Shown here: piece by piece, positions 2,883-21,384 of the stretch
Position numbering within the stretch: the stretch's first letter is position 1
Layout of the letters: each line of letters begins with the position of its first letter
Virus record (IMG/VR): IMGVR_UViG_3300027777_001268
Coordinates: 1-21,384 of that record
DNA from: a virus
Length of the DNA: 21,384 bases
Direction: 5' to 3' (one strand)
Translations under genes and position numbers: made by a program
The notes under the pieces: generated by a model
Seen by the model: only the letters and a program-made list of their open reading frames with translations
The model's database searches: none
What the model was told of the DNA's origin: nothing

Positions 2883-5126
2883 TTACGGGGCTGTCGTCTG
2901 CTGTTGTTGACCTTGCCCTTGATTCATTGCCATATTTGCAAAGAAACCAGCCCTTTGTGCAAGCGGGATTCCTACTGCATCAGCGTATTTCTTGAATGCG
3001 GATGATTTTTCGACTTGTGCCGCTGTTTGCGTAAATAATTCTGGGTTTGCTTGGCTTGCAGAAACTAGCTTTCTGAACTCTGGGGAAGTTAAGAATCTGT
3101 CTGCATCAGCAAACATATCACGTTTATTTGCTTGGAATGCCCTAGTTCCTGCTCCGGCGACTGCTGAAGCGATCTCATATCCTAGACCATGCTGACCAAA
3201 GGCAGAGCTTACCAAAGATCCAGCAAATCCTCCCATCATGGCAGTTTTTGCGGCATCCCATACTTTTGTTGCCATAGATTCAGGTACATCCTTAAACGCA
3301 GAGGACGAAATCAGCCCTGTGCGAACTTCTTTCTTTAGAGCATTGTCGATGTTTTTGGAAACCTTGTAGAGATTTTCCAGATGATCGGCAGCTCCTTCTG
3401 GAAGGTTATCAACCAGCGTCTGATATGCTTTCTTGTTGGTGTTTTTAAGACCTTCATACCATTTGGAGTAGGTATTGAAATTGAGAGATCCATTTTGCGT
3501 TGCTTGCCCAAAAGCATGAGAAACACCAGAAATTGCTACCTTTTGACGCAAATCTTCAGGTAACGCATTAATCAGATTAATAAACTTGTCCTCGTCGCCC
3601 TTTGACAAAGCTGTGATTCCGCCTTGAAGTGTTCCAGAAAGGCTCTTTGTCACCTCTTTGTTAAAAAGGTTCTCAATGTTTCCTTCTAGCTCCTTTTGTG
3701 TGCGAGATGTTTCCCTTGCTTGTTGAGCAAGGTCTTTATGACCTAGTTTCTCAAGGTTGGCGTAATCGTCTTCACTCAAAAGACTATAATACTTTTTTGC
3801 AAGACCTTCATCTTCGCGTCCGAAATATCCTTGAACATTAGTTGCCCTTCCAATTTCCTTCCTCCAGTCGTTAAGAATAGCCCTGCTAGGCATAGTTCCA
3901 TTTTTCTGGATTTTGATAGCCTTCATTAAATCCCTTTCAAATGGCGTTAGTTGGTCAACTCTTCCTTGCCTTTCTTTTAGTCGTTGTTCTAGGAAGGTTA
4001 GGGTCTGATCTGGATAGACTTGCGTAGATGGCGGGATTTTCTTGTCTAGTTCTGTATGCAGCTTTTCAGATTGGCCCTTCAGATCCTCGGCAGTCTTCAG
4101 CATCTTGTCTTTTACATCAGAGCTTAACTGCGAAAGGTCTGTAGTCCCTCCTAGATCCTCAATCAGTTGTTTTGATCTAGCACCTACATCTTGCAATGCC
4201 GATTCTTGCTCCCGTGCAATCTGGGAGCTAGGCATTGCTTTAACAGTCTGAACCATTGCTTGATATGGCTTGTTTTGAGTTAGGAACTCAGTTGGAAGAT
4301 TCTCTAATCCAAGTGCTTTTGCAGCTTCTTGGATTTGCGGTGCAGGAGCAGCGGCTTGTGCAAGAGCTTTTGATGCTGGTTGATTGCCGCGAACTGCTTT
4401 AATAGTTGCAGGAACGATTCCTTCTAATGCTTTTGCTCCACCCCTAAATAAAGTGGGGATTAAAGCCTTTCCACTAGTTGCTGCAACCAATCCAGCAGTC
4501 GGCACAGCAATCTGTGCAGGAACATTCCCTCCAGCTTGTTTAACGGCCTCTGCTCCACCTTGCAAAGCAGCCCCTGCTGCGGTCTGTTCTATCGGATTCT
4601 TGCCAAGAGCAGCCATAACGCCTTTTGCTATGGGACTATTAGCAAGATATGCGGCCTCTCCAGCCATTCCTGCGCTAGTAGCCGCTCCTGCGGCTTCAGA
4701 TCCACCTTTTGAAAACTGATATGCAATCTGTTCGGCATGAGATCTTGGTTCTGGTACTCCAGCCTTGTCTAGAAGATGCGTAATAGCATCACTAGGAGTC
4801 GTGTAGTGAGTTTTAAGAACGCTATTAAGCGAATTTACCATCATGTCTCCATAAGCAGGGATTCCTGCCGCAATCTTTGCGCCTTGAAGTGGCATTCCTG
4901 CTGGCAATCCAGCAATAGCACCTAGTACGGCTGTAATTGCTGTAGGGGCTGCTCCACGAACTATTGCACCAGCCATTCCTTCTGGCGTTGTTACTGGCTC
5001 TTTAGTAAGTGAACTGGTTTTATCTGAACTCTTAAGGGTTTTTTCAGCGGAATCGGCAAGATTATTCATGAAATCCAAATCTGAAGAACCAGAGGTAGAT
5101 TGTGAATTTGTGTTAGATGTACTCAT
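2883..5126 (-). CDS. Putative internal virion (ejection) protein
   Basis: This 747-residue protein begins with a Ser/Thr/Asn-rich stretch (MSTSNTNSQSTSG). Three long Ala/Gly-rich hydrophobic tracts follow, near residues 50-93, 130-240 and 645-685, with the small-residue spacing of glycine-zipper or membrane-associating helices. Between them, roughly residues 280-500, it is highly charged and probably coiled-coil. The last residues are a Gln tract (MNQGQGQQQQTTAP). No enzyme motif is visible; in particular I see no lytic transglycosylase or peptidase signature. Length, composition and position downstream of the tail-tube genes resemble ejection proteins of podoviruses, such as those of T7 or P22, but there is no sequence match I can assert. 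It starts four bases after the stop of the 666-residue gene. Confidence 0.8.
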   Translation of the reverse strand: MSTSNTNSQSTSGSSDLDFMNNLADSAEKTLKSSDKTSSLTKEPVTTPEGMAGAIVRGAAPTAITAVLGAIAGLPAGMPLQGAKIAAGIPAYGDMMVNSLNSVLKTHYTTPSDAITHLLDKAGVPEPRSHAEQIAYQFSKGGSEAAGAATSAGMAGEAAYLANSPIAKGVMAALGKNPIEQTAAGAALQGGAEAVKQAGGNVPAQIAVPTAGLVAATSGKALIPTLFRGGAKALEGIVPATIKAVRGNQPASKALAQAAAPAPQIQEAAKALGLENLPTEFLTQNKPYQAMVQTVKAMPSSQIAREQESALQDVGARSKQLIEDLGGTTDLSQLSSDVKDKMLKTAEDLKGQSEKLHTELDKKIPPSTQVYPDQTLTFLEQRLKERQGRVDQLTPFERDLMKAIKIQKNGTMPSRAILNDWRKEIGRATNVQGYFGREDEGLAKKYYSLLSEDDYANLEKLGHKDLAQQARETSRTQKELEGNIENLFNKEVTKSLSGTLQGGITALSKGDEDKFINLINALPEDLRQKVAISGVSHAFGQATQNGSLNFNTYSKWYEGLKNTNKKAYQTLVDNLPEGAADHLENLYKVSKNIDNALKKEVRTGLISSSAFKDVPESMATKVWDAAKTAMMGGFAGSLVSSAFGQHGLGYEIASAVAGAGTRAFQANKRDMFADADRFLTSPEFRKLVSASQANPELFTQTAAQVEKSSAFKKYADAVGIPLAQRAGFFANMAMNQGQGQQQQTTAP

Positions 5127-7136: not shown

Positions 7137-7628
7137 TTAGGAGCCGCCGAATTTAATGCCGTCTGTCTGTGGAACCGTAAATTGAGTTGCGTTATTGGTC
7201 TGGTTCATATTTGCGGCCTTAGCTGCTTGTCCTCCAGTGCCTGTGTTTGCTGTCTGAGCCGCTGCATTTGTAGGGGCAATTGATGTTCCACCGCCGCCAC
7301 CTACTGATCCAAGTGCCGCTTGCTTTGCTCCAGCTATGCTAAATCCAGATCCTCCGGCTTGCGATGCCGCCTGCGCTATTGGAGCTTGTTCAGCCTGTTG
7401 AGCTTGTCCAGTGCTTGCGAGCTGTGATTGAGCCTGTTGAGATCCGACTTTTGCTACGTCCTGTGCGCCAGTAAGCCTTGTTTGGTATTCGGCCTGTTGT
7501 TGCTTTTGCAAAGCAGCGGTAGCCGCCGCATCAGCAGCAGCCTTAGCAGCCGACTGCTGTTGAGCAATCATTGCGCTGTTATCTGGTGCTTGTGCTGGGG
7601 CTGGCTGCCCTCCTCCATGCCCTCCCAT
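7137..7628 (-). CDS. Ala/Gln-rich MGG protein, tandem paralogue of next gene upstream
   Basis: I place the start at the ATG at 7628, not at the more upstream ATG at 7694. The shorter form begins MGGHGGGQPAPAQ, aligns with the neighbouring paralogue from its first residue, removes a 65-base overlap, starts one base after the upstream stop, and has GGTGGA about eight bases before it. The resulting 163 residues are Ala/Gln-rich: an N-terminal DNSAMIAQQQ segment, a probable long helix to about residue 90, a GSGFSIAGAKQAALG segment, a Gly run, and an Asn/Thr-rich tail ending DGIKFGGS. No known domain is recognised. The composition fits a flexible or fibrous virion component; function is unknown. 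Confidence 0.75.
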   Translation of the reverse strand: MGGHGGGQPAPAQAPDNSAMIAQQQSAAKAAADAAATAALQKQQQAEYQTRLTGAQDVAKVGSQQAQSQLASTGQAQQAEQAPIAQAASQAGGSGFSIAGAKQAALGSVGGGGGTSIAPTNAAAQTANTGTGGQAAKAANMNQTNNATQFTVPQTDGIKFGGS

Positions 7629-7629
7629 A

Positions 7630-8148
7630 TTAATATCCACCAAATGTGGTTGTGGAAGATTTGCCGATTTGGTTTTGACCAGTAACTCCAGCATTAGCTA
7701 ATGGTGTCTGAGCTGCTGCTGTAGTAGCCGCAGGATTCATTGTTTTTGGAGCGTATGAAAGATTAGCTGCCGTAGGTGAAAGGTATCCAGCTCCTGCTCC
7801 TAAGTTTGACATCTGGTTCTTTTGAGCCGCCGCAAGATCAAATCCGCCACCTGCCGCTGATGCACCTTGCCCTTGAGCCGCAGCGTTCTGAGCCTGCAAC
7901 GCCGCCGCATCTTGTGCCTGCTGATATTGGTTTTGCAATCCAAGCTGCTGTTGGGCCTGCTGTGCGCCCTGCTGACCTGCTGTAGTGGCAGATTGAACGG
8001 ACGCATTGTATACGGCTTCCTGTTGGGCTTTAAGGGCAGCCGCTTGTGCTGCTGCTTGTTGCGCTTGTTGCTGGGACAAGAACGCAATCATTGCGCTATT
8101 GTCTTGTACTGGTGCTGGTTGCCCTCCTCCTCCTCCTGATCCACCCAT
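7630..8148 (-). CDS. Ala/Gln-rich MGG protein with poly-Gly N-terminus
   Basis: This 172-residue protein begins MGGSGGGGGQPAPVQDNSAM and ends TTTFGGY. Between these ends lies a long Ala/Gln helix (AQQAAAQAAALKAQQEAVYN), then AAGGGFDLAAAQKNQMSNLG and a Pro/Ala/Thr-rich tail. It is a clear tandem paralogue of the gene that follows: both share the MGG...GGGQPAP start, the DNSAMIA motif, the G-F-x-[LI]-A-x-A-K centre and the FGG-x end. The gene starts 11 bases after the stop of the 127-residue gene with no upstream Shine-Dalgarno sequence. No domain is recognised; it is presumably a structural or accessory virion protein. Confidence 0.75.
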   Translation of the reverse strand: MGGSGGGGGQPAPVQDNSAMIAFLSQQQAQQAAAQAAALKAQQEAVYNASVQSATTAGQQGAQQAQQQLGLQNQYQQAQDAAALQAQNAAAQGQGASAAGGGFDLAAAQKNQMSNLGAGAGYLSPTAANLSYAPKTMNPAATTAAAQTPLANAGVTGQNQIGKSSTTTFGGY

Positions 8149-8159
8149 AGTAGTATTGG

Positions 8160-8543
8160 TTATTGGTTGTAGTTGAATGAAAATTTCTCTGGGGCGTTCA
8201 TATCCATGTAGTTTTGCATAGATGGACGGCGCATATATTGAACTGCATCTGTAAATCCTTGTGGTGATGGTGTGCTAGATGCCACTGGGCCAACATTTCC
8301 AGTTGCCTGTGATGCTGTTGTTGCGTCACCAGCACCTTTTGCAGCTGCTCCTGCACCAGCACCAATAGCCGATGTAGCTAATGAACCAATTCCTTTAATT
8401 ATTCCTTGTGTCACGGCTTCTGGATGTGCGCTTTGAACATCCCATTTCTTATCTACTGATGCTACAGGAATGCCATTGCCATCACCTTTGTTAAAATCAA
8501 GGTGTGTTGCAGTAATTTGATCGTTTGGATTGGCTCCTCCCAT
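8160..8543 (-). CDS. Small MGG protein with SAHPE motif
   Basis: This 127-residue protein begins MGGANPNDQITATHLDFNKG. Residues 33-51 read KWDVQSAHPEAVTQGIIKG and lead into a glycine-zipper-like hydrophobic helix (SAIGAGAGAAAKGAG, about residues 58-72). The tail is polar and aromatic, ending FSFNYNQ. The SAHPE segment plus glycine-rich helix is shared with the 666-residue protein three genes downstream, and the MGG start with four other proteins here. The gene follows the second-largest kind of gap in the operon (43 bases), in which an imperfect hairpin ends one base before the start codon region. No family is recognised; membrane association or a role inside the virion is inference. Confidence 0.75.
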   Translation of the reverse strand: MGGANPNDQITATHLDFNKGDGNGIPVASVDKKWDVQSAHPEAVTQGIIKGIGSLATSAIGAGAGAAAKGAGDATTASQATGNVGPVASSTPSPQGFTDAVQYMRRPSMQNYMDMNAPEKFSFNYNQ

Positions 8544-8544
8544 A

Positions 8545-8571
8545 ACTTGGAAAACTAATAGGTTTCTAAGT
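8545..8571 (-). other. Imperfect inverted repeat before an MGG gene
   Basis: In the gap between the cysteine-cluster gene and the 127-residue gene, ACTTAGAAAC and GTTTTCCAAGT can pair around a six-base loop (CTATTA). This gives about nine base pairs with one mismatch and one bulge. The 3' arm ends one base before the ATG at 8543, and no U-run follows. It is therefore not a normal intrinsic terminator; it could be a leader hairpin or chance. Confidence 0.25.
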
Positions 8572-8586
8572 ATAGATCAATATTAA

Positions 8587-8868
8587 TTATACTTTTAAGC
8601 CAGCGTTTGCTCTAGCCTCTTTACAGAGATCAGATCCAGATTCAAACTTTTGGCAAGCTGATGGCCTGTCGTTGTATATGTTGCACGAAACATTGCACCC
8701 TATTTCCCCACTTAATGCAACGCACCTATTATTTATAGTTTTCATTAATGGGTAATCTTCACGAACAAGCTCCTTTGGTATATTCTTAGCGTCTGACCTA
8801 TCTTTTTTAAGTAAAGGCCATGACCACCTGTGAGAGCAACAAGCACCACAAGATTGGCAATCGTACAT
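8587..8868 (-). CDS. CxxCxxCC (YkgJ-type) cysteine-cluster protein
   Basis: This 93-residue protein begins MYDCQSCGACCSHRW, the CxxCxxCC signature of the YkgJ/UPF0153 family, thought to bind zinc or iron. Cysteines are at residues 4, 7, 10, 11, 49, 58, 62, 72 and 82. The later part follows the family plan: a C-x-x-L segment, then CNIYNDRPSACQKF, which corresponds to the usual C-x-I-Y-x-x-RP-x-x-C. It is short but appears complete. The start overlaps the stop of the PP-loop gene (TAATG), so the two are probably translationally coupled and act together. The family is well known but its biochemical role is poorly defined; modification or repair of metal-dependent proteins has been proposed. Family assignment is strong, function weak. 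Confidence 0.88.
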   Translation of the reverse strand: MYDCQSCGACCSHRWSWPLLKKDRSDAKNIPKELVREDYPLMKTINNRCVALSGEIGCNVSCNIYNDRPSACQKFESGSDLCKEARANAGLKV

Positions 8869-9713
8869 TATTTGTTCCAGATTGGCCTAAATCCAAGATC
8901 TTCAAAAACAACGTCCTCATAAGGAGCCAAATGCGACATATTGCTAATGGTTGCCTTTAGCTTTGGGCAGTATGCTGGTTTGCCAGCTTGGTGTCTGTCA
9001 ATACAGTTAAGACAAGTAGGGATATAGTCTGCATTTTTGCTTTTGTCGGCCTTGTGACCCCATTTGCCCTCAATGCATTCATACCTGTCCATATCTGGGC
9101 ATACTCCGTTATCTACAAGCCATGAAAAAATTTGATCGTCGTCCCAATCACGCATCAAATACAAACTAATTGGAGATCCTTCTGCATATCTGATGTCTTG
9201 AGACATGGGAACGTGACCCTTAATAAGATCGGTATCGCACTGCTTAGTTCCGATGAATACACCCTGCCAAGGCCAATTAAAACTGCCTGTAGGACGGCCT
9301 AGAAAATCTATTCCGCAAAGGTACTTTTCATCACCAATAGGACGCTCTGTTCCAAGAGATAAAACAACGCTTCTTTCTCCCCATTGCTGATATTTCAATA
9401 GATCAAAGCGCATCTCGCCTGTATTCACATCAGGCCCATCAGCTAATGCTACCTTTGACGGCGGGTACTCATACATTTCAAGATCCCAATCTTTTATTAG
9501 CTTGTCGCTATACGAATAACGCTCACGAAACAAAGGTTCCCTAAATTGAATTACTGGGAGGTGAATATCACATTCAAATTTAAGAAAATGAAGCAATGCA
9601 GTAGAGTCTTTTCCTCCACTCCACAAGATAGCCGATTTAGGCCACCTATTTATCCATTGTTTTGCTTTTTCTTTTGTTTGAGTGATTAATGTTTGTGTGT
9701 ATGTGTTTGTCAT
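8868..9713 (-). CDS. PP-loop protein of the PAPS reductase family
   Basis: This 281-residue protein has the ATP pyrophosphatase P-loop at residues 31-40 (WSGGKDSTAL), the hallmark of the adenine nucleotide alpha-hydrolase superfamily that includes PAPS reductases and DndC-like proteins. The C-terminal ECGLH motif of a true assimilatory PAPS reductase is absent. Instead there are cysteines at about 234, 237 and 249 (PTCLNCIDRHQAGKPAYC), which could bind a metal or an iron-sulfur cluster. It therefore probably adenylates or pyrophosphorylyses some substrate, perhaps for sulfur transfer to nucleic acid, but the substrate cannot be read from sequence. The start overlaps the upstream stop as TAATG, and its stop overlaps the start of the cysteine-cluster gene. 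It is a non-structural gene embedded in a virion-gene operon. Confidence 0.88.
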   Translation of the reverse strand: MTNTYTQTLITQTKEKAKQWINRWPKSAILWSGGKDSTALLHFLKFECDIHLPVIQFREPLFRERYSYSDKLIKDWDLEMYEYPPSKVALADGPDVNTGEMRFDLLKYQQWGERSVVLSLGTERPIGDEKYLCGIDFLGRPTGSFNWPWQGVFIGTKQCDTDLIKGHVPMSQDIRYAEGSPISLYLMRDWDDDQIFSWLVDNGVCPDMDRYECIEGKWGHKADKSKNADYIPTCLNCIDRHQAGKPAYCPKLKATISNMSHLAPYEDVVFEDLGFRPIWNK

Positions 9714-10243
9714 TAAATTATTACTGCCGCCCCTAAAGCTGCTCCAGCAACCGCACCGCCAGTTTGCATCATTTGTCCTTTAGAGGCATTATCTGATGCT
9801 GCATTATTAACTGCTCCTGTGTACATGGCCTGTTGATAATTCTGCCAGTTTTGGTTGTGTGCGTTTACTGCTTGCGATTGAGATCCCATCATTTGGTTAA
9901 TCCAATCCTGAGTTGACTGAGCTTGTCCCTGTGCGCCTTGAACGGCTGCATTAATTCCTGCAACTCCTTGTTTTGCCTGCTGTGCGCTGGCTCCCTGAAG
10001 CTGTTCTGCTCCAGAAGACGGGTTAATTCCTACTACTGGGGCTTGACCGATGATTCCTTGTGCTTGCCTTGCTCCAGCCTCACGAAGAGCCTGTCCCTGC
10101 GCCGTTGCTTGATCAAAAAAACCACTACGTCCAACTGTGCTGTCTTGCAGGCCGGAACCAAGGTAATTCTCAAGACCCTTAGTTTTAGTCCAGTTATTAA
10201 GCTGGTTCTGCCAGTAGCTAGGTGCGGAATCTTCGTTAGCCAT
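9713..10243 (-). CDS. Gln/Ala-rich protein with YWQN motif and C-terminal glycine zipper
   Basis: This 176-residue protein begins MANEDSAPSYWQNQLNNWTK. The first 25 residues repeat the pattern found at the very end of the upstream 124-residue protein: P-x-YWQN, an aromatic residue, K, and GL. The middle is Gln/Ala-rich and probably helical (AQGQALREAGARQAQGII, later GAQGQAQSTQDWINQMM). The last residues, TGGAVAGAALGAAVII, form a short hydrophobic glycine-zipper segment that could insert in a membrane. It starts one base after the upstream stop (TAGTATG). I recognise no named family. The composition and position suggest a small internal or tail-associated virion protein. Confidence 0.75.
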   Translation of the reverse strand: MANEDSAPSYWQNQLNNWTKTKGLENYLGSGLQDSTVGRSGFFDQATAQGQALREAGARQAQGIIGQAPVVGINPSSGAEQLQGASAQQAKQGVAGINAAVQGAQGQAQSTQDWINQMMGSQSQAVNAHNQNWQNYQQAMYTGAVNNAASDNASKGQMMQTGGAVAGAALGAAVII

Positions 10244-10244
10244 A

Positions 10245-10619
10245 CTATTGAGTAAGTCCAGTCTGCTTTCCGTATTGGCTCATTGTGTTTTGCCAATAGT
10301 TTGGAGAAACGTCTTGAGCTGCCATCTTTTGAAGTCCCTCCCTAGCCTGTGCTGCGTAAGGATTCTGAGCTTGCTCTAGCTTTTGGCTATTTGCAGCATT
10401 AATTGCCGCAACCTTGTTTGCCTGAACTAATTGACCAGTAGGGCCATAGACATCAGGAGTATATGCAGTCTGAGGAATTGCAGAAGTGAGTTTAAGCATT
10501 TCCGCTTGGTTAGCTAATGCATTCTGACCTAATTGTGATTGATTAGACATCTGTGCAATAGCCAGATCATCATTTGGCTTGGGAATATACTGAGAAGGTT
10601 GTGGATTTGAGCCGCCCAT
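10245..10619 (-). CDS. Small MGG protein with C-terminal YWQN motif
   Basis: This 124-residue protein begins MGGSNPQPSQYIPKPNDDLA, placing a Pro-rich spacer between the MGG start and a D-D-x-A-I-A segment comparable to DNSAMIA in the two Ala/Gln-rich paralogues. The middle is polar and helical (QSQLGQNALANQAEMLKL). The last 20 residues read SPNYWQNTMSQYGKQTGLTQ and closely match the start of the next protein. The gene sits between the 128-residue gene and the YWQN-start gene with gaps of two bases and one base. No Shine-Dalgarno sequence is seen. Function is unknown; it may be a split or duplicated part of one ancestral protein together with its neighbour. Confidence 0.75.
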   Translation of the reverse strand: MGGSNPQPSQYIPKPNDDLAIAQMSNQSQLGQNALANQAEMLKLTSAIPQTAYTPDVYGPTGQLVQANKVAAINAANSQKLEQAQNPYAAQAREGLQKMAAQDVSPNYWQNTMSQYGKQTGLTQ

Positions 10620-11258: not shown

Positions 11259-13382
11259 TTAGCAATTGTGTGTAGCTCTGTAGTTGTTTACAGAGTTTTG
11301 GGCCTCTTGAGATGCTAGATTTCCAGCCTGAGTCTGTGCGTCAAGCAATGATGTGTAGCTGACGTATGAAGCAGTAGCCGTTACCGATACAGCCGGAGAA
11401 CACCCTCGATATGTCACGGTTCTTGTCTGTGTGCTAGACCATGAATTCAGTGCATTGGCTGCTACTTCTACGGGCGCAAGGTTTATGTCAATTAACTCGC
11501 TAGATCCGTTTTCTCCAACGACACAATATTGAGTTTCGTTGTAGCTTGGCTTTCCAACAGAAAGATCAGGCCAAGGATCTAAGAACATCCGTATTGAATC
11601 AATCGCCATTGCTCCGCACCACTCAGTTAGGAAGCTGAATGCCTTGTCCACATCGTAAGTGTAATTCGATTCGCAAGATTTACCTCCTGATCTAGAGACA
11701 TTTTCTGTAACTAGCCTTCTTGCTTGAGTCTGAAGTATTCCAAGTTGGTCTATTTGCTTGGAATAGTTGCTTGTATTGTACTGATACCCCTCAGTTGCGG
11801 CTAGGAGCCTCGTATTGAGGATTTCTGAATAAGACCCCCTAGTTCCCCTATAGGAAACCTTAACGTCAACAGTTCCGGCGATTTGCGAGCAATCAAGCTC
11901 TCCGTAAACCATCTGTTTCATGTCCATTGCGTCACCTAGAAGGCCCGTTTCCATTTGGCAGTAAATCCGATTCACTCTTTCCTCAGTCCTGCCGCCTTGG
12001 TTGATTTGCAGGTAGGTATCATATCTTTCTGGCATGAATGCTTCCCAGATATGGTTGAAAGATCCATCGGACGTGCTTGCGTAATCAACCGAGAAAGCAA
12101 ATACGCGAGTCTGACTATCAATTACGTTACTTGACCATACAATTGGGCGTATTCCTGTCCACACACCATTCCATGCAGGCGACTTTGATTGGTTCCATTC
12201 CGATGCTGAAGCGTAATCCAAAACCATTGTCACGCTATTCGTAGGCTCTAAGTATGGTATTGAATAAAGCAAATAATTCTCAAATGAAACGGCGCAAATA
12301 CCGCTGACATCAGATGCCATAAGCCGCTTCGCCTTTGCCATCTCAATGTCTTTGAAAAGAACCTGACTAGATAAGTATGAAGCGGCTGCAACGTCAACGC
12401 TTACTAATCCGCCCTGAGAGTACCACCACATCATGCCAGCTTGGAACGCTATGCTGTCTCCTGCAACGCATCCAATGGTAGGGTAAAGAGTAGCTTGGAA
12501 ATTAGGAGTATTAGGCCATTGTGCGCGATCAAGCACGCCACTTGAAAGTGAATACGTTGACTGATTGGTGAACACATACAGCTTTGTATCGTTGTTTTGA
12601 CCCACATAATCACGCATTCCTGTAACTGGCCTTGCAACACTGAAGTCTCCGCGACCAGCACCTTCATTTCGTTCAGCCCATCCCAAAGGATTAGCTAAGT
12701 CAGATGCCGCAATGATGTTCCCAGTTGCTACCCATAGTCTGTTGCCAGAGAATGCCATCCAATAGCCGATTGGCATATCACTAGATACTTGACCAGTCCT
12801 ATCTGAACCGTCCCAGTATCCAGCCGGATTGATCCCATCTTGGATAATAACAATTCGATGAGATGGAACAACTGTGCTATTTGTATTGTTGTCAATAGTT
12901 GCTGTTTGAGTACCAATAACGAAGTTTACCTTCTTAATGTTTGGATCAAGCCGGATATTTGAAAGCAAGTAAGAGTCCCAGTTGTCAGGTTGAGTCAAAG
13001 GGAATGGAGAATAGTAAACCTTCCCATCAACGCAGAACAATGCGTATGGAATATCCGATGCCACAACAGGGTTTCCGTTTACATCATATACAGCGGCCTC
13101 GTTGCTAATAGTAACGCCAGACAGATTAGTAACTGTGCTGGCATTTTGATACTGCTTATTTGCGTTAAAGATAATTCCTCCCTGAAAGTTTCCTTTTGGT
13201 AGCGAAAGGCGCATCTTGAACCCATTGCGTGTCTGTACTAATCCGCCACGGCAGTTTACATTAACGCCCCACTTGAATTGATCCTCTGGAAGAGTCCAAG
13301 GATTACGAACTGAATTTACACCATGAATCCACGCTGCCGTAGACTTAGTTTGCCTGCCGGAAGTGATATTTGGGCTTTTCAT
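11259..13382 (-). CDS. Putative tail nozzle (tail tubular B-like) protein
   Basis: This 707-residue protein begins MKSPNITSGRQTKSTAAWIH. Its early segment NCRGGLVQTRNGFKMRL matches the G-G-L-x-x-R-x-G-F pattern near the start of podovirus tail tubular/nozzle proteins. The body is rich in aromatic beta-type segments (GYWMAFSGNRLWVATGN, TKLYVFTNQSTYSLSSG, MMWWYSQGGLVSVD), as expected for a propeller-like nozzle. The C-terminus carries VTYRGCSPAVSVTATASYVS followed by a short helix ending NNYRATHNC; this looks like a separate adhesive-type domain similar to DUF5977, and that is a weak match. The gene overlaps the stop of the 1375-residue gene as TAATG. The pair therefore resembles the adaptor-nozzle gene pair of T7-like viruses (gp11-gp12). 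Assignment rests on pattern and position only. Confidence 0.72.
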   Translation of the reverse strand: MKSPNITSGRQTKSTAAWIHGVNSVRNPWTLPEDQFKWGVNVNCRGGLVQTRNGFKMRLSLPKGNFQGGIIFNANKQYQNASTVTNLSGVTISNEAAVYDVNGNPVVASDIPYALFCVDGKVYYSPFPLTQPDNWDSYLLSNIRLDPNIKKVNFVIGTQTATIDNNTNSTVVPSHRIVIIQDGINPAGYWDGSDRTGQVSSDMPIGYWMAFSGNRLWVATGNIIAASDLANPLGWAERNEGAGRGDFSVARPVTGMRDYVGQNNDTKLYVFTNQSTYSLSSGVLDRAQWPNTPNFQATLYPTIGCVAGDSIAFQAGMMWWYSQGGLVSVDVAAASYLSSQVLFKDIEMAKAKRLMASDVSGICAVSFENYLLYSIPYLEPTNSVTMVLDYASASEWNQSKSPAWNGVWTGIRPIVWSSNVIDSQTRVFAFSVDYASTSDGSFNHIWEAFMPERYDTYLQINQGGRTEERVNRIYCQMETGLLGDAMDMKQMVYGELDCSQIAGTVDVKVSYRGTRGSYSEILNTRLLAATEGYQYNTSNYSKQIDQLGILQTQARRLVTENVSRSGGKSCESNYTYDVDKAFSFLTEWCGAMAIDSIRMFLDPWPDLSVGKPSYNETQYCVVGENGSSELIDINLAPVEVAANALNSWSSTQTRTVTYRGCSPAVSVTATASYVSYTSLLDAQTQAGNLASQEAQNSVNNYRATHNC

Positions 13383-16300
13383 TATCCAACAATATCGCCG
13401 TAGATAGAATCGATTACAGGATCTGTCATGTCGCCATAAGTCAATCCATTGACTTGTATTGGCTCCATTGCGTGACCAGTCATGCTTTCGTGTTGGTTAC
13501 GAAGATATGCAAGTGCCTTTGCCCAATATTTGTTGCTTTGCTCCTCGAAATCCTTGTCCTCTAGGTCTACAGCGTGAACTGCTGCCATGATTGCGCGAGT
13601 GTTCTCTACTGGGATGTAATCGTAAACGCTAGTGATCGTAGGGTGAGCCATCCTGTAAATGATCCTCACCCATGCACATGGCTTTCCAATCCTTATGCGG
13701 CGATACTTAGGGTTTGTCTCAGAAGGGTGATACTGACCAACTAATGCCATGTCGTTGCTACGTCCGTAATCATAAGCGTATAGGCTGACGTAACCTACAG
13801 TTATGGGCTTCTCAATGTGCAGAATGCTCTTAACAAGCGTAGGTGGAAGGATTGAATCAACAAAGAAGCTACTTTGTACGGTATCACCAGTAGAGTAAAT
13901 TGAAACAAGGCCAGTAGAGGTTCCAGCAACGGCATTGTTGTAGGAGTTGTAGACATTAAAAGTGTTCTGATTAGCTGGCTGGACATATCCGCCATTGAAT
14001 CCAACGTAATAGTAGAACGAGAAGCTGTAAGTAGAATTTACGGCAGTAAGATTTGCCGCGCTACTCATTGTCACGTTGTATGCGTCTACAATCGCTGTAA
14101 TCGTCGTATTAACTGGTATTCCTTGTCCAGATATGGTCATTCCAACGCTTAAAGCTGCTGTGCTATTAAGGCTTAGATTGGATGAATACTGAGTTGTCGT
14201 ACCAATTACATTTGTAGTTGATTGAGCCGACGAAAGCAGTCCGTTAGGCAAGCTGTCACCAGTATTTGCACGCACTGTGATTTGCTGACCCGTCTCAAAA
14301 GTTGAATTTGTGCATATAAGCGAAGTTGAAGGCGATGCCGTAAACTGCCTAACGATATTCATGAATAGCTGACCAGTAGACAGCGTGGGGATTCCGCCAG
14401 ATGCAAAGATTACTGGGTTATTGCTAGGATCAAGTAACGTAACATTATTTCCAGTAACTTGTACTGAATATGTTGTGGATGCTGAAATAGGAGCAGGCAA
14501 TCCATCCGTTCCATTGGTTGCGCTTGTTGTAAATGTTACTCCAGCACCTTGCGATAGGTACTGAATCGAACTAGGAGTTAGAAGGCTTCCGCCACCAGAA
14601 GTAGCTTGGTATGCCTTTGCATAGGCCGCAAACCTAATCCCATAGTAAGACTGACCAGATCCAAGTGTAACCACGTTGATTGCACTATCTTGGATGTAAG
14701 CAGAAGCACCAAAACCAGTAGTATCTCCAGATGCATTAGTAAATACGACATTTGGGAGAGTTGAATATCCAGTCCCTCCATCAGTTACATTTACCGATGC
14801 GACTACTCCAGTAATTGCAAATGCTATAACTGCCTGAGTGCCGCCGGATGGTGGAGCATCAACAGCAACAGATAATGTTCCTCCCGAAGTATATCCAGTT
14901 CCTTGTGATTGAATCTGAACAGAAGTCACAACTCCGCCAGTAATAAATGCACTAGCAGTTGCACCACTGCCGCCGCCGCCAGAGATTGTGATTTTAGGAG
15001 GCGTAACATATCCAGCTCCACCATTTGTTATGGTATATGAAGTCACTTGATAATCTAAATTCGCAGTTGGAGGAGTTGTATATGTTCCACTTCCACCAAC
15101 AAAGGAAACTATTGGTGCAACTGTGTATCCACTGCCTCCACTTGTTATCTTAATTGCAGAAGATGGGCTTCCTGTAGTTATTGGGAAAGTGATTCCAGAA
15201 CCCCAAGATGGCAATGCGCTATAGAGTTTTGCCAGTGTATTTGATCCGGCTATTTTTTCAATATATGCGGACGTAGCAGATGGGCTTATTGTCGGGAAAA
15301 GATAATCTGATGAAAGGTAAACCAAAGATCCATTTGCAACTCCGTTGAAATTACCAGTCCAAAGGTTATTGAAACCAACAGAGAATGTCCTACTGAGTTG
15401 AAGATAGAATGTTCCAGATCCAGTGTCAGTAATTGTTACTGGATTGAATGAAGAATCTTTAATTGTGAATGTGCCATTAGCATTTAATGGAGCCTCAGCC
15501 CTGTATGCAGTTCCAGATTTAAGGGGGGATGGAAGAGTCCCAGTGCTTGCAAACTCAACAAACACTCCAGTAGATGGAGTAATATTTACAGATGGATTAG
15601 ATGTGTATCCAGTTCCCTCAGTAACGACCTTAATACTTGTAACCTGACCATTGGCAACGGTTGCAATAGCTGTAGCACCGCTTCCTCCAGATCCGCTTAC
15701 TGTAACCTGAGGCGGCGTTGTATATCCAGATCCGCCCGAAACAATGTTAAAATAAGATACAAAGGACTTTGTGATAGTAGCATTTGCTATTGCTGTTGCT
15801 GGCACAGTTGTTGGTACTGTTGTTGGGCCAGATGGTGCGCCTATCGTAATTGATGGCTGTGTAATGTATCCAAGTCCTCCATCTGTAATTACAATTGATC
15901 CAACAACATAAGTTATTGGAACAGTTGGAACGGCTGGCAATATCATTATGGCATACCCTTGGGCAGTCCTTGTCTCTTGACTTGTTCCAGCAGGAGGAGT
16001 TGGCGGTGGGCTGAATGTAACCTGAGGTGGTGTAGTATACCCGACTCCGGCAGATGTTACGGTTACACTTGTAACAGCACCAACAGAAACTCCAGTAGCA
16101 GCAGCTCCAGAACCAGCAGGAGCTATCAGATTGAATCCACTTGCTGTAATGTTGCTTGTATCACCGATGTTCACGGTTGCGTTTATTAGCTTAACAATTG
16201 AATTGTTTCCAGATCCTGACGTAATAAGGATAATTGGATTAGTTCCTGCAAATGCGTCAGTAGCGTTTGTATGTATTGATACAGAAGTCGAGCTAATCAC

Positions 16301-17509
16301 ATATACAAAGTAATTCTGACCTTGAATAAGTGGTTGTGGTAGCGTTCCTCCAGCAGTGTACGCTTGAACCTGATCCCCAGTCTGAAAATAGTGAGGAACT
16401 GGGAAGTTAAGAATTGTTACTGGTGCAATTGCGTTGCGAATATCGACATTGAATTTTCCGCTATTGCCGGACAGAAGAACTGGATTACTGTTTGCTTGAG
16501 CATCTGAAATAGATCCATAGATTTGAAGGTCTGTAGCGTCCAAGCTCTGTGCAAAATACGTTGTGTTTGCTGCTAGTGGCGATGGAAGTGCCGATGCAAA
16601 TCCTGCTCCAGATCCAACAGAAAACGTCACTTCATTTGGAGATCCAATTGTGATAGTTGGAGTTGACTGAAGTTGGACGCAAGTAAGTAGATTGATCGGC
16701 CTCTTGTCGGTTAGTGTAACTGTACCGAGGGTTGGGTTGACTATGCTCTGTAACGAAATAGGATTATTACCAGATTCTGCGTCTAGCTCTGTCTGGTAAA
16801 GCTGAATGGTATTGGCATCATCTGATCCAATGTAATACGTCTGTCCTGCAATCAAGATGCTGTTTGTGACTCCAGATCCAAGGCTTAGAACGGCAGATTG
16901 ACCAGAAACAAACTGGTGAGCTATTGCGGAAATAAACTTCGTTATTGGTGAAACTTTTGCCGATTGCGTCTGTAGAGTAACACCATCTGGTTCGATAGTT
17001 CCGTATGGAAAATCAGATTTTGCGTGAACCCCTACAAGAACGCCATCAACGCCAGTTCCATTAGGCAATTGCGTGCGTAGCTCCCTATTGTTGCCGTCTG
17101 TTCCAATAACGCGAAGCTGAACGCCTGCATCTGCTTCATGTTCAGCAACTGCAATTAGCTGAGATGGTTGGCGGATGTCCATGATCGTGCTAACAAAACC
17201 GCGATCATCCCATGCCCAATTAACTCCGCTATAGACTCCACCTTTGTTGACGTTGTACTGGAACAGGCGACTCCTAAAATAAGTAGGAGAGCCATCGACG
17301 TTGACTGCTAGAGGCACTTCAATGCCGCGAGGGAGAGTTACAGTCTGGTTATCCCAACCAGTGCAGACATCTACCTCGTTATTGATATGGAAGTAGTGTC
17401 CAGACTCCATAAGAGTCTGAATCGCCTCCGTTAGCTTTCTGAAAATCTTGGGTTGATCAGTAGTTCCAAGAATTTCAGAGGCTTCGTCAATTATCTCGCT
17501 GACGAACAT
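13382..17509 (-). CDS. Putative head-tail adaptor enlarged by repeat domains
   Basis: This protein has 1375 residues. Residues 1-40 are two helices (MFVSEIIDEASEILG..., KLTEAIQTLMESG) followed by a beta region to about 190. Residues 1210-1375 return to compact globular sequence with a long final helix (ENTRAIMAAVHAVDLEDKDF onward). Helices at both ends with a beta part between them are typical of podovirus head-tail adaptors (T7 gp11-like, usually about 200 residues). The intervening 1000 residues are repeats: eight G-x-GY[TS] units and about six LP-x-P-x-...-T-x-Y units. This could alternatively be a tail spike or decoration protein with an adaptor-like base. The next gene, coupled by TAATG, looks like the nozzle. 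The start is preceded by AACTAA, with no Shine-Dalgarno sequence. Confidence 0.7.
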   Translation of the reverse strand: MFVSEIIDEASEILGTTDQPKIFRKLTEAIQTLMESGHYFHINNEVDVCTGWDNQTVTLPRGIEVPLAVNVDGSPTYFRSRLFQYNVNKGGVYSGVNWAWDDRGFVSTIMDIRQPSQLIAVAEHEADAGVQLRVIGTDGNNRELRTQLPNGTGVDGVLVGVHAKSDFPYGTIEPDGVTLQTQSAKVSPITKFISAIAHQFVSGQSAVLSLGSGVTNSILIAGQTYYIGSDDANTIQLYQTELDAESGNNPISLQSIVNPTLGTVTLTDKRPINLLTCVQLQSTPTITIGSPNEVTFSVGSGAGFASALPSPLAANTTYFAQSLDATDLQIYGSISDAQANSNPVLLSGNSGKFNVDIRNAIAPVTILNFPVPHYFQTGDQVQAYTAGGTLPQPLIQGQNYFVYVISSTSVSIHTNATDAFAGTNPIILITSGSGNNSIVKLINATVNIGDTSNITASGFNLIAPAGSGAAATGVSVGAVTSVTVTSAGVGYTTPPQVTFSPPPTPPAGTSQETRTAQGYAIMILPAVPTVPITYVVGSIVITDGGLGYITQPSITIGAPSGPTTVPTTVPATAIANATITKSFVSYFNIVSGGSGYTTPPQVTVSGSGGSGATAIATVANGQVTSIKVVTEGTGYTSNPSVNITPSTGVFVEFASTGTLPSPLKSGTAYRAEAPLNANGTFTIKDSSFNPVTITDTGSGTFYLQLSRTFSVGFNNLWTGNFNGVANGSLVYLSSDYLFPTISPSATSAYIEKIAGSNTLAKLYSALPSWGSGITFPITTGSPSSAIKITSGGSGYTVAPIVSFVGGSGTYTTPPTANLDYQVTSYTITNGGAGYVTPPKITISGGGGSGATASAFITGGVVTSVQIQSQGTGYTSGGTLSVAVDAPPSGGTQAVIAFAITGVVASVNVTDGGTGYSTLPNVVFTNASGDTTGFGASAYIQDSAINVVTLGSGQSYYGIRFAAYAKAYQATSGGGSLLTPSSIQYLSQGAGVTFTTSATNGTDGLPAPISASTTYSVQVTGNNVTLLDPSNNPVIFASGGIPTLSTGQLFMNIVRQFTASPSTSLICTNSTFETGQQITVRANTGDSLPNGLLSSAQSTTNVIGTTTQYSSNLSLNSTAALSVGMTISGQGIPVNTTITAIVDAYNVTMSSAANLTAVNSTYSFSFYYYVGFNGGYVQPANQNTFNVYNSYNNAVAGTSTGLVSIYSTGDTVQSSFFVDSILPPTLVKSILHIEKPITVGYVSLYAYDYGRSNDMALVGQYHPSETNPKYRRIRIGKPCAWVRIIYRMAHPTITSVYDYIPVENTRAIMAAVHAVDLEDKDFEEQSNKYWAKALAYLRNQHESMTGHAMEPIQVNGLTYGDMTDPVIDSIYGDIVG
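14018..14221 (-). repeat. Nested module inside the last LP repeat
   Basis: Residues about 1097-1164 interrupt the sixth LP repeat between its LPNGLLSSA start and its YYYVGFNGG continuation. The inserted segment contains LSVGMTISGQGIPVNTTITA, a pattern that I know from repeated modules of phage tail proteins (L-S-V-G-M-x-[IV]-x-G-x-GIP-x-x-T). The boundaries are estimated by eye. Confidence 0.5.
14732..15154 (-). repeat. G-x-GY repeats, second cluster (four copies)
   Basis: Residues about 786-926 hold four units centred on GGSGYTVAP, GGAGYVTPPK, QGTGYTSGG and GGTGYSTLPN. Each has the pattern [IV]-x-[ITV]-x-x-G-G-x-GY-x-x-x-P-x-[IV]-x-[FIV], often followed by GGSGA-T-A and a short linking strand. 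The encoded repeats are divergent at the DNA level, so this is an old array, not a recent tandem duplication. Confidence 0.75.
15590..16063 (-). repeat. G-x-GY repeats, first cluster (four copies)
   Basis: Residues about 483-640 hold four units centred on AGVGYTTPPQ, GGLGYITQPS, GGSGYTTPPQ and EGTGYTSNPS. A GSGGSGATA linker is present after the third. They belong to the same family as the second cluster, separated from it by an LP-type repeat and about 85 unrelated residues. Confidence 0.75.
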
Positions 17510-18291: not shown

Positions 18292-19356
18292 CTATCGCAC
18301 TCTTCGCGCCGTAATAGTTCCATAGGCAGAAAGCGTACTAGGTGTAAATGTTGCGTTTGATACAAGGTAAATAGTTGTGGTTGATGCAAGTGAAATTCTT
18401 TGCTGTCTGAATGTATTGCCAATGTCATTTGACGCAGTTGGAACAACGGCTGCAAATACATTAGTAGTAAATGTATCTTGCGCCCCTAAAGTTGCAGATG
18501 TAGTGCTAATTCCTTGTTTTAAAATTGTAATGCTAGTAGTTGCTCCTGCACGATAATCAACCTGACCACGAACATCCCAATCTCCGGCTGTCAACGAAAT
18601 AGAAGTTACATTTGCAGTTGTTCCAGATGTAAGTGAAATGGCAGATCCGACAGAAACAGTTGAATTTACAAACTCACCTACATAACCAGCGGCTGCATTA
18701 TCATTAGTAGTTGTTCCTAAAACATTCGTTGATGTTGTAGATGTTCCAGAAAGTGATGCAGTAATTGTTCCAGCAGAGAAATTTCCAGATCCGTCACGCA
18801 ATACAATTGTAGATGCTGTATTTGTGCTAACTGGGTTTCCAGCCAATTTGCTATTGGCAATAGCCGCTGATGCAGATATATCAATGTCAATAATAGACCC
18901 ATTAGCGATCATTGATGTAGTAATAGAGCCAGACGGCAATGAAAGCGTTCCAGTTGCAGTAAGATTATTAATGGTAGGGCTATTAATAATAGGAGCTGTC
19001 AGCGTCTTATTGGTAAGTGTCTGAATCCCATCAATTGTAACAAACGCATTGGGAACCGCTGTATTCAATGCCCTAGTTATGTAGCAAAGAAGACCTTCGT
19101 TTGTATTGCGAGATACACCTAAAATAGTTGACGGCGATGTAGTAGGATCGCAAGGGATATTCCAGATCACACGACCATTCTGGACGGTTTTTGTAATTGC
19201 GCCATACAGCGCATTAGTAAGGTTGTCAATCTGGCTAGGAACGCTCTCATGTGAAACGCTAGGGTATGGAGTATCAGCTCGGCAGATGCTATTACGCCCT
19301 CCGGCATAGGATGGAGTTAGGAATGGAAATGGATTTGGAGGGAGTGGATCAGCCAT
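18292..19356 (-). CDS. Putative tail fibre / receptor-binding protein
   Basis: This 354-residue protein begins MADPLPPNPFPFLTPSYAGG. Residues 40-100 form a globular base (KTVQNGRVIWNIPCD). Next comes a fibre-type segment, TIDGIQTLTNKTLTAPIINS, whose QTLTNKTLT-x-P motif is typical of tail fibres, followed by Ser/Thr/Ala/Ile-rich repeats (SGSITTSMIANGSI, SASAAIANSKLAGN) that suggest a beta-helical shaft. The C-terminal 100 residues (AGDWDVRGQVDYRAGA ... QRISLASTTTIYLVSNATF ... GTITARRVR) look like a compact beta-sandwich tip of the kind found in phage fibre heads. It starts 15 bases after the RCC1 fibre gene, so two different fibre-type proteins are made in succession. Target receptor unknown. 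Confidence 0.82.
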   Translation of the reverse strand: MADPLPPNPFPFLTPSYAGGRNSICRADTPYPSVSHESVPSQIDNLTNALYGAITKTVQNGRVIWNIPCDPTTSPSTILGVSRNTNEGLLCYITRALNTAVPNAFVTIDGIQTLTNKTLTAPIINSPTINNLTATGTLSLPSGSITTSMIANGSIIDIDISASAAIANSKLAGNPVSTNTASTIVLRDGSGNFSAGTITASLSGTSTTSTNVLGTTTNDNAAAGYVGEFVNSTVSVGSAISLTSGTTANVTSISLTAGDWDVRGQVDYRAGATTSITILKQGISTTSATLGAQDTFTTNVFAAVVPTASNDIGNTFRQQRISLASTTTIYLVSNATFTPSTLSAYGTITARRVR

Positions 19357-19371
19357 TTTAATAAATGTTAA

Positions 19372-21384
19372 TTAATTTAGGAAAGCTCGTTGAGGAAGGG
19401 ATACATTTGTTCCGTATGATGTGGATGTTTGCCAATAATTATTATATCCCCAAGTCCACAACTCCCCAATAGTTGATTTGGCATAAACAACAGGATTTGG
19501 TTGAAGACCCATGACTCTAAAATCGCTAAATAGCGTTGCTATTGGTTGACGGCATGGTTGTAGCACATTTCTATTTGTAGAAATAGACCCACCATCGCCA
19601 TAAATTCTACCTTGGTATCCGCAAACATAAATTAAACCAGTTGTAGTAAGGGCAATTAGATTTGCTCCTCCAGAATTTGAGTCTCCAAAATATTGTATTT
19701 TTGAAAATGTTAAACCAGAAACTCCAGAGAGGGTTTGTGGAGTTGATGCATTTGAATTAGAGCCAGTACCTAATGCCCCTTCAGTTCCTCGCCCCCAAGA
19801 CCTAATTGTTCCATCAGTAAGAAGTGCAGCGACTGATGTTCCAGCGTTTGCGTACTGGTTGCTCATAGTCAAAGATGAAACATTTGCAAGGCCAGAAATT
19901 GATGTAAATGATGATTTGTCAATTACGTCTCCAACACCAAGTTGTCCAGATGCATTTCTTCCAGTAGCCCACACAGCACCATTCCATACAATATATGTAG
20001 ATGACTGAGCGTATGTTGTGTTTACTGCGCCAGATGCGTAGACAGCAGATGCCTTAAGAGATGTTACTTGGTTGTAAGTATTTCTGTCAGTTGTGTCACC
20101 AAGTCCAAGCTGTCCTACAGCATTTGCTCCAGTAGAGTAAATGTTATTATTATTATCCAGAACAAATGAATACCCATATCCTCCACCAAATGCAAAGCAG
20201 CGAGTAAGTATTTTGCCAGAGATTGCTCCTCCAGAAATCAGCGTTGGCGTTGGCCTGTTTGTTGTGGTTCCATCTCCAAGTTGACCCGATGAGTTGCTGC
20301 CCCATGCATACAAAGCTCCTGAAGAGGTTATAGCTAATGCATGGTATGCGTCAGGATCTGCTCCAGATTGTGAAACACAAAAGTCGGCAACATTAGTAAT
20401 CCCAGTGATTTTTGTAAATGTATACCTATCTACTGTATCTCCAACACCAAGAACACCAGCCCCGTTAGCACCACACGAATAAATATTGCCAAGGCTTGTA
20501 AGAACAAACATTGAACCATAGGTTATCATGACTTTTGTAACAGTCTCGTTTGATGCTTTTGGAACTTGAGCCACAAAGAATCCAATTCCAGTTGAATTTA
20601 AGTTGTCAATGCCCTGACCGAGCCTATAGCGATTATTTAACCCAATAGTTCTGACAAGATTATTGCTGTCAACCAGAATTCCGGCAGCATTAAATGCAGT
20701 ATAGCCAACATCTCCATAAGATGCGTCAGCAAAGAAAGACACACGAACATTAGATTGTTGTAATGTCTGCGAGATTGCAGTCACCCTTCCAGTGGTATCT
20801 ACTGTGACAACTGGAACTTGTGTTGAAGATCCGTATGTTCCAGCAGAAAGACCAGTGATGGTTTCTAGTTTTGCTCCAGTAACTTGGGAGTTTCCAATCA
20901 TCGCCGTAAGAACGCCTCCGGCAGTGACAGCGTTTGCTATTGTTGCAGTAGCAGCAAGGGTTGCCGTAGCAGAGTTTCCAGAGCAGGCTAGTGCAGTAGT
21001 GGCTGTGGTTGCCGTTACTGAGTTTCCAGTGCAAGCAGACGATGTTGCGGCGTTGCCTGCAATATTCGTTGACCATGATGGAGATGCCGCTCCATTAGAA
21101 ACTAAGACTTGTCCACTTGTTCCATTTGATACAAAACCAGAAATATTTGGCGAGGTTTGGTATAAAACATTACCTGCCGTCCCTCCGGCAATGCCACCAG
21201 CAGTTAATGCCGCTGGAGCATTGACCCAAGTCAGCACGTTTGCAACTAATCCTAAAACCTGACCATTAGCTCCTGCTGGAAGAAATTGGGTTGTGTTTGG
21301 CGCACTTTGGTAAGGAATGCTATTCAATGCTCCACCCAAAAGATTGGTTGCAAATCCTACAGAGTTAATATCCAACACCCTAAT
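19372..21384 (-). CDS. Tail-fibre-like protein with C-terminal RCC1-type propeller (5' partial)
   Basis: The frame is open to the right edge of the window; the first possible in-window start is a GTG at 21378, but the codons before it are also open, so the true start probably lies outside. At least 668 residues are visible. Residues 20-95 hold two copies of a fibre-type repeat (YQ-x-x-PN...GQVL) 50 residues apart. Residues 100-205 are Ala/Thr/Gly-rich (GNSATATLAATATIANAVTA) and end in the common fibre motif VDTTGRVTAIS. Residues about 290-665 contain seven RCC1-type repeats (W/C-G-x-N-x-x-G-x-LG-x-G). A propeller at the C-terminus is a plausible receptor-binding head; the ligand is unknown. 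Confidence 0.85.
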   Translation of the reverse strand: MRVLDINSVGFATNLLGGALNSIPYQSAPNTTQFLPAGANGQVLGLVANVLTWVNAPAALTAGGIAGGTAGNVLYQTSPNISGFVSNGTSGQVLVSNGAASPSWSTNIAGNAATSSACTGNSVTATTATTALACSGNSATATLAATATIANAVTAGGVLTAMIGNSQVTGAKLETITGLSAGTYGSSTQVPVVTVDTTGRVTAISQTLQQSNVRVSFFADASYGDVGYTAFNAAGILVDSNNLVRTIGLNNRYRLGQGIDNLNSTGIGFFVAQVPKASNETVTKVMITYGSMFVLTSLGNIYSCGANGAGVLGVGDTVDRYTFTKITGITNVADFCVSQSGADPDAYHALAITSSGALYAWGSNSSGQLGDGTTTNRPTPTLISGGAISGKILTRCFAFGGGYGYSFVLDNNNNIYSTGANAVGQLGLGDTTDRNTYNQVTSLKASAVYASGAVNTTYAQSSTYIVWNGAVWATGRNASGQLGVGDVIDKSSFTSISGLANVSSLTMSNQYANAGTSVAALLTDGTIRSWGRGTEGALGTGSNSNASTPQTLSGVSGLTFSKIQYFGDSNSGGANLIALTTTGLIYVCGYQGRIYGDGGSISTNRNVLQPCRQPIATLFSDFRVMGLQPNPVVYAKSTIGELWTWGYNNYWQTSTSYGTNVSLPQRAFLN
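19375..20661 (-). repeat. RCC1-type repeats, seven clear copies plus one degenerate
   Basis: Clear copies start near residues 301 (CGANGAGVLGVGD), 359 (WGSNSSGQLGDGT), 416 (TGANAVGQLGLGD), 471 (ATGRNASGQLGVGD), 528 (WGRGTEGALGTGS), 586 (CGYQGRIYGDGG) and 643 (WGYNNYWQTS). A weak extra copy lies near residue 245 (IGLNNRYRLGQG). Spacing is 55-58 residues. RCC1 itself is a seven-bladed propeller, so the count fits a closed ring. Confidence 0.85.
21097..21324 (-). repeat. Two-copy fibre repeat with 50-residue spacing
   Basis: Residues 21-42 (IPYQSAPNTTQFLPAGANGQ, then VL) and 71-92 (VLYQTSPNISGFVSNGTSGQ, then VL) align without gaps. The DNA copies differ at many positions, so the duplication is not recent. 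Further copies may lie beyond the window edge. Confidence 0.7.

Follow-up and report, generated by a model that had tools for sequence, protein, structure and literature searches.

Adaptors are usually viewed as small, conserved pieces of plumbing. Known adaptors have in common a four-helix up-down bundle without any sequence homology between them, and some carry in addition a beta fibre dock (PMC6702177); in SU10 the dock touches the long fibres (PMC9509320), and the DEV adaptor has a 101-residue domain between helices H2 and H3 that faces outward (PMC10925440).

The window analyzed here, a viral metagenome record taken as a whole (21,384 bases), encodes a protein of 1375 aa which we propose to be the adaptor of a short-tailed phage, with an array of beta-domains placed between helices 2 and 3 and forming an exchangeable surface at the neck. 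We put the probability of this explanation, taken as a whole, at roughly 0.8.

Layout of the gene and its relatives

Relatives were gathered from IMG/VR by scans that took as queries the whole protein, the protein encoded downstream, and the two ends, giving several hundred matching stretches. The same layout was found in all 110 distinct complete genes: an N-terminal domain at or near the start, a C-terminal domain at the end, and between these conserved ends an insert of 643-1569 aa (median 890). The limits of the conserved ends in the 1375-aa protein, at about residues 1-180 and 1205-1375, come from two alignments: identity to the first 180 residues is 37-86% among the relatives in alignment A1, and identity to the last 175 residues is 29-80% among those in alignment A2. 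The resulting division of the gene is given in Table 1. The ORF and the next gene share one base (TAATG), an overlap which probably reflects translational coupling of the adaptor and nozzle-like genes. In one contig (L043/L195; L043:5134-7997) the adaptor gene is split into ORFs of 323 and 617 aa, either by a sequencing error or because the copy is broken.

No relatives were found by tblastn in 50,697 GenBank phage records, nor in GTDB genomes, and the lineage is thus known here from metagenomic contigs only, many of the longest of these being ~60 kb. Scans of the IMG/VR viral contigs returned no compact, insert-free relative either; with no compact version in the family, the term "expansion" stands for what we infer about its origin.

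Table 1. Features of the candidate adaptor gene and its downstream neighbor, in positions of the 21,384-base window.
Feature	Position	Strand	Basis and remarks
Putative expanded head-tail adaptor gene	13382..17509	minus	1375 aa; ORF, 110 complete relatives with the N-insert-C layout, adaptor fold of the modeled relative L010
Predicted adaptor helices 1-2, residues 1-36	17402..17509	minus	Conserved; colinear with L010 model helices 7-14 and 19-36
Conserved N-side beta region, residues 37-180	16970..17401	minus	Alignment A1 and model strands; pLDDT <50 at 74-81
Variable beta-domain array, residues about 181-1204	13898..16969	minus	Insert of 643-1569 aa in 110 relatives; motif counts
First GxGY block, residues about 475-650	15560..16087	minus	Motif counts
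Second GxGY block, residues about 785-930	14720..15157	minus	Missing from L010 (pairwise alignment)
Relocated small domain, residues about 1093-1166, GMTISGQGIP motif	14012..14233	minus	Pairwise alignment; like domain at about 565-633 in L010
Conserved C-side beta region, residues 1205-1303	13601..13897	minus	Alignment A2; L010 model strands 1034-1106
Predicted adaptor helices 3-4, residues 1304-1344	13478..13600	minus	L010 helices 1123-1137 and 1141-1163 mapped by alignment
C-terminal tail, residues 1345-1375	13382..13477	minus	Partly conserved (A2); position where adaptors carry an embracing helix or loop
Nozzle-like gene, 707 aa	11259..13382	minus	Directly downstream of the adaptor gene; weak beta-propeller model

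Fold of the joined ends

The protein that was folded is an unaltered relative (L010, 1191 aa) and not the 1375-aa protein itself, to which it is 84-86% identical at the N-terminal end (86% when residues 1-180 are compared) and about 82% identical in the final 170 residues. AlphaFold2, supplied with an alignment of 56 sequences, gave a model with a mean pLDDT of 85.4 and a pTM of 0.54. Its helices at residues 7-14 and 19-36, and then at 1123-1137 and 1141-1163, make up a four-helix layout; between helices 2 and 3 (residues 37-1122) the model holds only beta structure and short helices of 4-6 residues, with the last strands running to 1106, and the partly conserved C-terminal tail of 28 residues is unordered in the monomer model (pLDDT 35-49). 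A sequence-only reading of the window had described N-terminal helices, a region of beta repeats and a long C-terminal helix, which is the order of elements seen in this model.

That reading had also taken the two ends for the halves of a single adaptor, and the structural comparison (VIA-align) agrees, with solved adaptors leading the alignment. The best match is SU10 gp11 (7z47_A, deposited as "Adaptor protein"), with Z 11.4 and an rmsd of 4.1 Å over 174 residues spread from model residue 1 to 1173. The four highest Z-scores belong to three SU10 entries (11.4, 10.7 and 10.6) and to a 216-residue, adaptor-sized chain from the portal-tail complex of cyanophage A4 (10.9), and a tail chain of Shigella phage B2 comes next at 9.8; the B2 chain has 232 residues, which fits the adaptor of this phage as modeled for residues 2-233 (PMC11654681). 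The SU10, A4 and B2 alignments all extend from L010 residue 1 or 2 to residue 1173 with 171-178 aligned residues. Since some 175 residues are aligned across a span of 1173, the two ends correspond to one adaptor and the remainder to an insertion. The four main helices supply only 64 residues, fewer than the 174 (of 227) that are aligned, so the match takes in some of the beta core too. As modeled, then, both ends together build a single adaptor, its four-helix bundle interrupted by the insert after helix 2 and before helix 3.

For helical bundles, Z-scores of 10-11 are modest values, and VIA-align does no more than reorder the list that Foldseek supplies, where chain 9k09_d stood at rank 44 with an E-value of 0.95. 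The beta array dominates a whole-model Foldseek search with L010 and makes it uninformative, so that the two ends were joined only in the second look with VIA-align. T7 gp11 and P22 gp4 have no row in the VIA-align output for L010, from which tool an unlisted family is not excluded.

At the sequence level no adaptor family was matched. The ends had no convincing hit in the PDB, in PHROGs or among GenBank phages (best PHROG E-value 0.029 for the ends alone); the Pfam models Tube (PF17212) and P22_Tail-4 (PF11650) did not match the adaptor candidate, PF17212 being silent on its control as well; and a profile of the fused ends scored a probability of <1% against T7 gp11 and SU10 gp11, no better than against the portal, scaffold and capsid controls from SU10. 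The full-length protein, by contrast, is matched in five stretches by phrog_460 (head closure Hc2), with a whole-protein E-value of 1.5e-26, as though it were a head-closure (neck) protein of the T4 gp14 kind. The best of these stretches, however, consists of GxGY repeats (573-647), those repeats have matches in baseplate, fibre and further virion families too, and the conserved ends, as just noted, lack a convincing PHROG match of their own. Because the match comes from the repeats, we rejected it as a sign of kinship with the neck protein and consider a gp14-like protein highly improbable.

Gene order around the proposed adaptor gene

The gene downstream, which the sequence-only reading had called nozzle-like, has proved to be a constant companion: it directly follows the adaptor gene in 110 of 110 distinct complete relatives. 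Its protein gave a poor model (pLDDT 52), a weak beta-propeller. Foldseek's top hit for this model is chain Y in the C6 tail structure of podophage Pa223 (E 9.5e-6), an entry that also contains a head-to-tail adapter; phrog_511 is matched in 12 of 19 relatives. As the model is weak, we count it as supporting evidence only.

The wider order can be followed in one relative, G001: a protein of 805 aa, one of 407 aa, a scaffold-like protein, one of 401 aa, a fibre-like protein, an endolysin (the 154-aa ORF), another fibre-like protein, the adaptor and the nozzle-like protein, beyond which lie small virion-like proteins and then a protein of 3700 aa. By position and size, the 805-aa protein probably occupies the portal position and the 401-aa protein is probably the capsid protein; no portal or capsid model reached its curated threshold. 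The order of structural genes resembles that of T7 and SU10.

A separate true adaptor gene elsewhere in the genome would have counted against the sequence-only reading; none that convinced turned up in the relatives examined, with family models that are insensitive. A divergent adaptor encoded elsewhere could escape such models, given the silent control, in which case the 1375-aa protein might be a tail fibre, a tailspike or a baseplate-like protein with its helical ends serving as a mere anchor; the resemblance of the array to cyanophage baseplate wedge, fibre and virion proteins would suit a protein of this type. Against it stand the solved adaptors matched by both ends as one unit, the invariable position of the gene directly before the nozzle-like gene, and the presence of distinct fibre-like genes, 18292-19356 and 19372-21378, in the stretch 18292-21378 of the 21,384-base record. 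Nor does the structural block of G001 offer another convincing gene of adaptor size: apart from the endolysin, its ORFs of 118-159 aa were set aside on their composition and for having no matches, the uncharacterized ones of 141, 149 and 159 aa being judged as adaptors by composition only. A fibre or baseplate-like protein is quite unlikely in our judgment, and the identity of the 1375-aa protein as an adaptor is very probable.

Further observations concern the surrounding genes. A 668-aa protein in the tail-fibre place (19372-21378, minus strand) combines propeller repeats of the RCC1 type (Pfam E 9e-56 and 8e-32) with an N-terminal part that is fibre-like. Among the virion genes, at 8587-9713 (minus strand), a small CxxCxxCC protein, putatively metal-chelating (PF03692), lies beside a 281-aa protein with an SGGKDST motif, recognized by eye and with no Pfam hit, of the sort typical of PAPS-reductase/ATP-pyrophosphatase enzymes; a homolog of the 281-aa protein is found at a like place in G007. 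Downstream of the nozzle block, relatives encode a protein of 3425-3874 aa (L277:5501-15775 in G005, G001:30122-41224, G007:17164-28788), and the one scanned, from G005, has parts resembling ParB and, more weakly, an ADP-ribosyltransferase (ART-PolyVal), as in a polyvalent protein. Where relatives have this giant protein, the window has separate ORFs of 747, 117 and 725 aa, the 747-aa protein (2883-5126, minus strand) being similar (22-33%) to proteins that carry the annotation putative transglycosylase or DNA transfer protein, for instance in Pseudomonas phage PfAn1. A series of short Ala/Gln-rich ORFs at 7137-10619 (minus strand), several of which start with MGG, is also found in G001 and G005 and possibly encodes internal virion proteins.

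The array and its counterparts in known adaptors

In the middle of the 1375-aa protein the GxGY motif occurs 8 times (0.57 expected) and LPxPL...Y 4 times (0.0 expected), the expected numbers coming from 500 composition-preserving shuffles; the relatives have from 0 to 12 GxGY motifs, the count rising with length (r 0.65). Tandem Repeats Finder detected no long array of near-identical tandem DNA repeats in the adaptor gene, only two runs of 30-32 bases, and what repeats are thus domains of more than one kind that have diverged. Within the insert, GxGY repeats occur together with FCCH-like barrels and a domain that shifts its place between relatives. The small barrels in the L010 model match a region of ubiquitin E1 (VIA-align, Z up to 6.8), which we take to be the FCCH domain. 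Residues 565-633 of L010 match two phage chains in the same comparison: 8eci_1 of Arthrobacter phage Bridgette, at Z 9.9 with 29% identity, and, at Z 8.5, the phage Mystique tail tube (9n71_A). The 1375-aa protein lacks this domain there, and a like motif sits instead in the relocated domain of Table 1.

Comparison with close relatives shows where the array varies. Identity to the closest relative (L001) is 92-100% except at residues 451-600, where it is 78-81%, and identity to L002 drops to 54-56% at residues 801-900, with more than 120 gap positions; as a pattern in aligned sequences, this fits the gain, loss and exchange of modules inside a fixed frame. Matches in PHROG, BFVD and VIA-align relate the modules to proteins of the tail, the baseplate and the virion in many phages. 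Virion and baseplate proteins of phrog_701, 708 and 2885 are built from the same kind of repeat modules but have a different anchor from the adaptor family, and are not adaptors. We found no literature on GxGY repeats in phage adaptors, and no phage report of FCCH-like barrels among the FCCH papers listed.

From the computed adaptor fold of the joined ends, and the computed fixed place, variability and modular make-up of the insert, we infer twelve copies, outward projection and a role in docking or binding, as follows. The two ends would fold together into the usual four-helix bundle, and by analogy a ring of twelve would sit under the portal and seat the nozzle. Between helices 2 and 3, where T7 carries the fibre dock and DEV the outward domain, an array of beta-domains of roughly 640-1570 residues would have arisen, and we propose that the conserved N-side beta region forms half of a dock-like domain at which the array exits. 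Twelve arrays would leave the ring by way of the dock and radiate from the neck, if the geometry of known adaptors holds, giving the neck a dense, exchangeable surface for docking fibres, for loosely binding cell-surface polymers, or for both. With the insertion lying between helices 2 and 3, as in DEV, the analogy leads one to expect that the array projects outward, and we regard this as probable.

The array could also fold back as a structural collar, bracing capsid and neck and binding neither host nor fibres. This would be in keeping with the lack of a recognized separate neck-collar gene in the lineage, and with the likeness of one module to the Bridgette domain (8eci_1); a bracing part should hold its length, however, whereas the insert ranges from 643 to 1569 aa and the order of its modules shifts between relatives. 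We consider a bracing collar unlikely, and for an array projecting from an adaptor we lean toward binding over bracing as its role. More tentatively, the adaptor ring of this podophage lineage may have turned into an adhesion organ with twelve arms that recombine, placed at the neck and apart from the tail fibres, whose modules are gained, lost and moved to tune attachment.

The proposed adaptor would be among the largest of virion proteins, with most of its length taken up by an array that varies but is always inserted at the same point, the one at which T7, SU10 and DEV place a dock or a lectin-like domain. It is a clear candidate for a binding organ carried at the neck. It would also put a name to an otherwise unannotated protein family, with no hit in GenBank phages, Pfam or PHROGs (for PHROGs, the ends only), and give an anchor gene to a podophage lineage that is seen here in metagenomes only.

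T7 gp11 (PMC6702177), to which we liken the present adaptor, combines a helix bundle, a beta dock and a C-terminal embracing segment and is followed by the nozzle gene, but it has 196 aa and its dock is one small jelly roll. SU10 gp11 (PMC9509320) shares its fold with the joined ends, its dock branches outward to contact fibres, and its nozzle gene lies downstream in the same block, as in the lineage studied here; it has 250 aa against 1375, and no sequence similarity. DEV gp83 (Schitoviridae; PMC10925440) has its outward insertion in the same place, but that insertion is one domain of 101 aa, described as lectin-binding, compared with about 640-1570 aa and several module types here. On the proposed reading, this is an adaptor with an outward insertion about ten times the size of the largest published one that we found.
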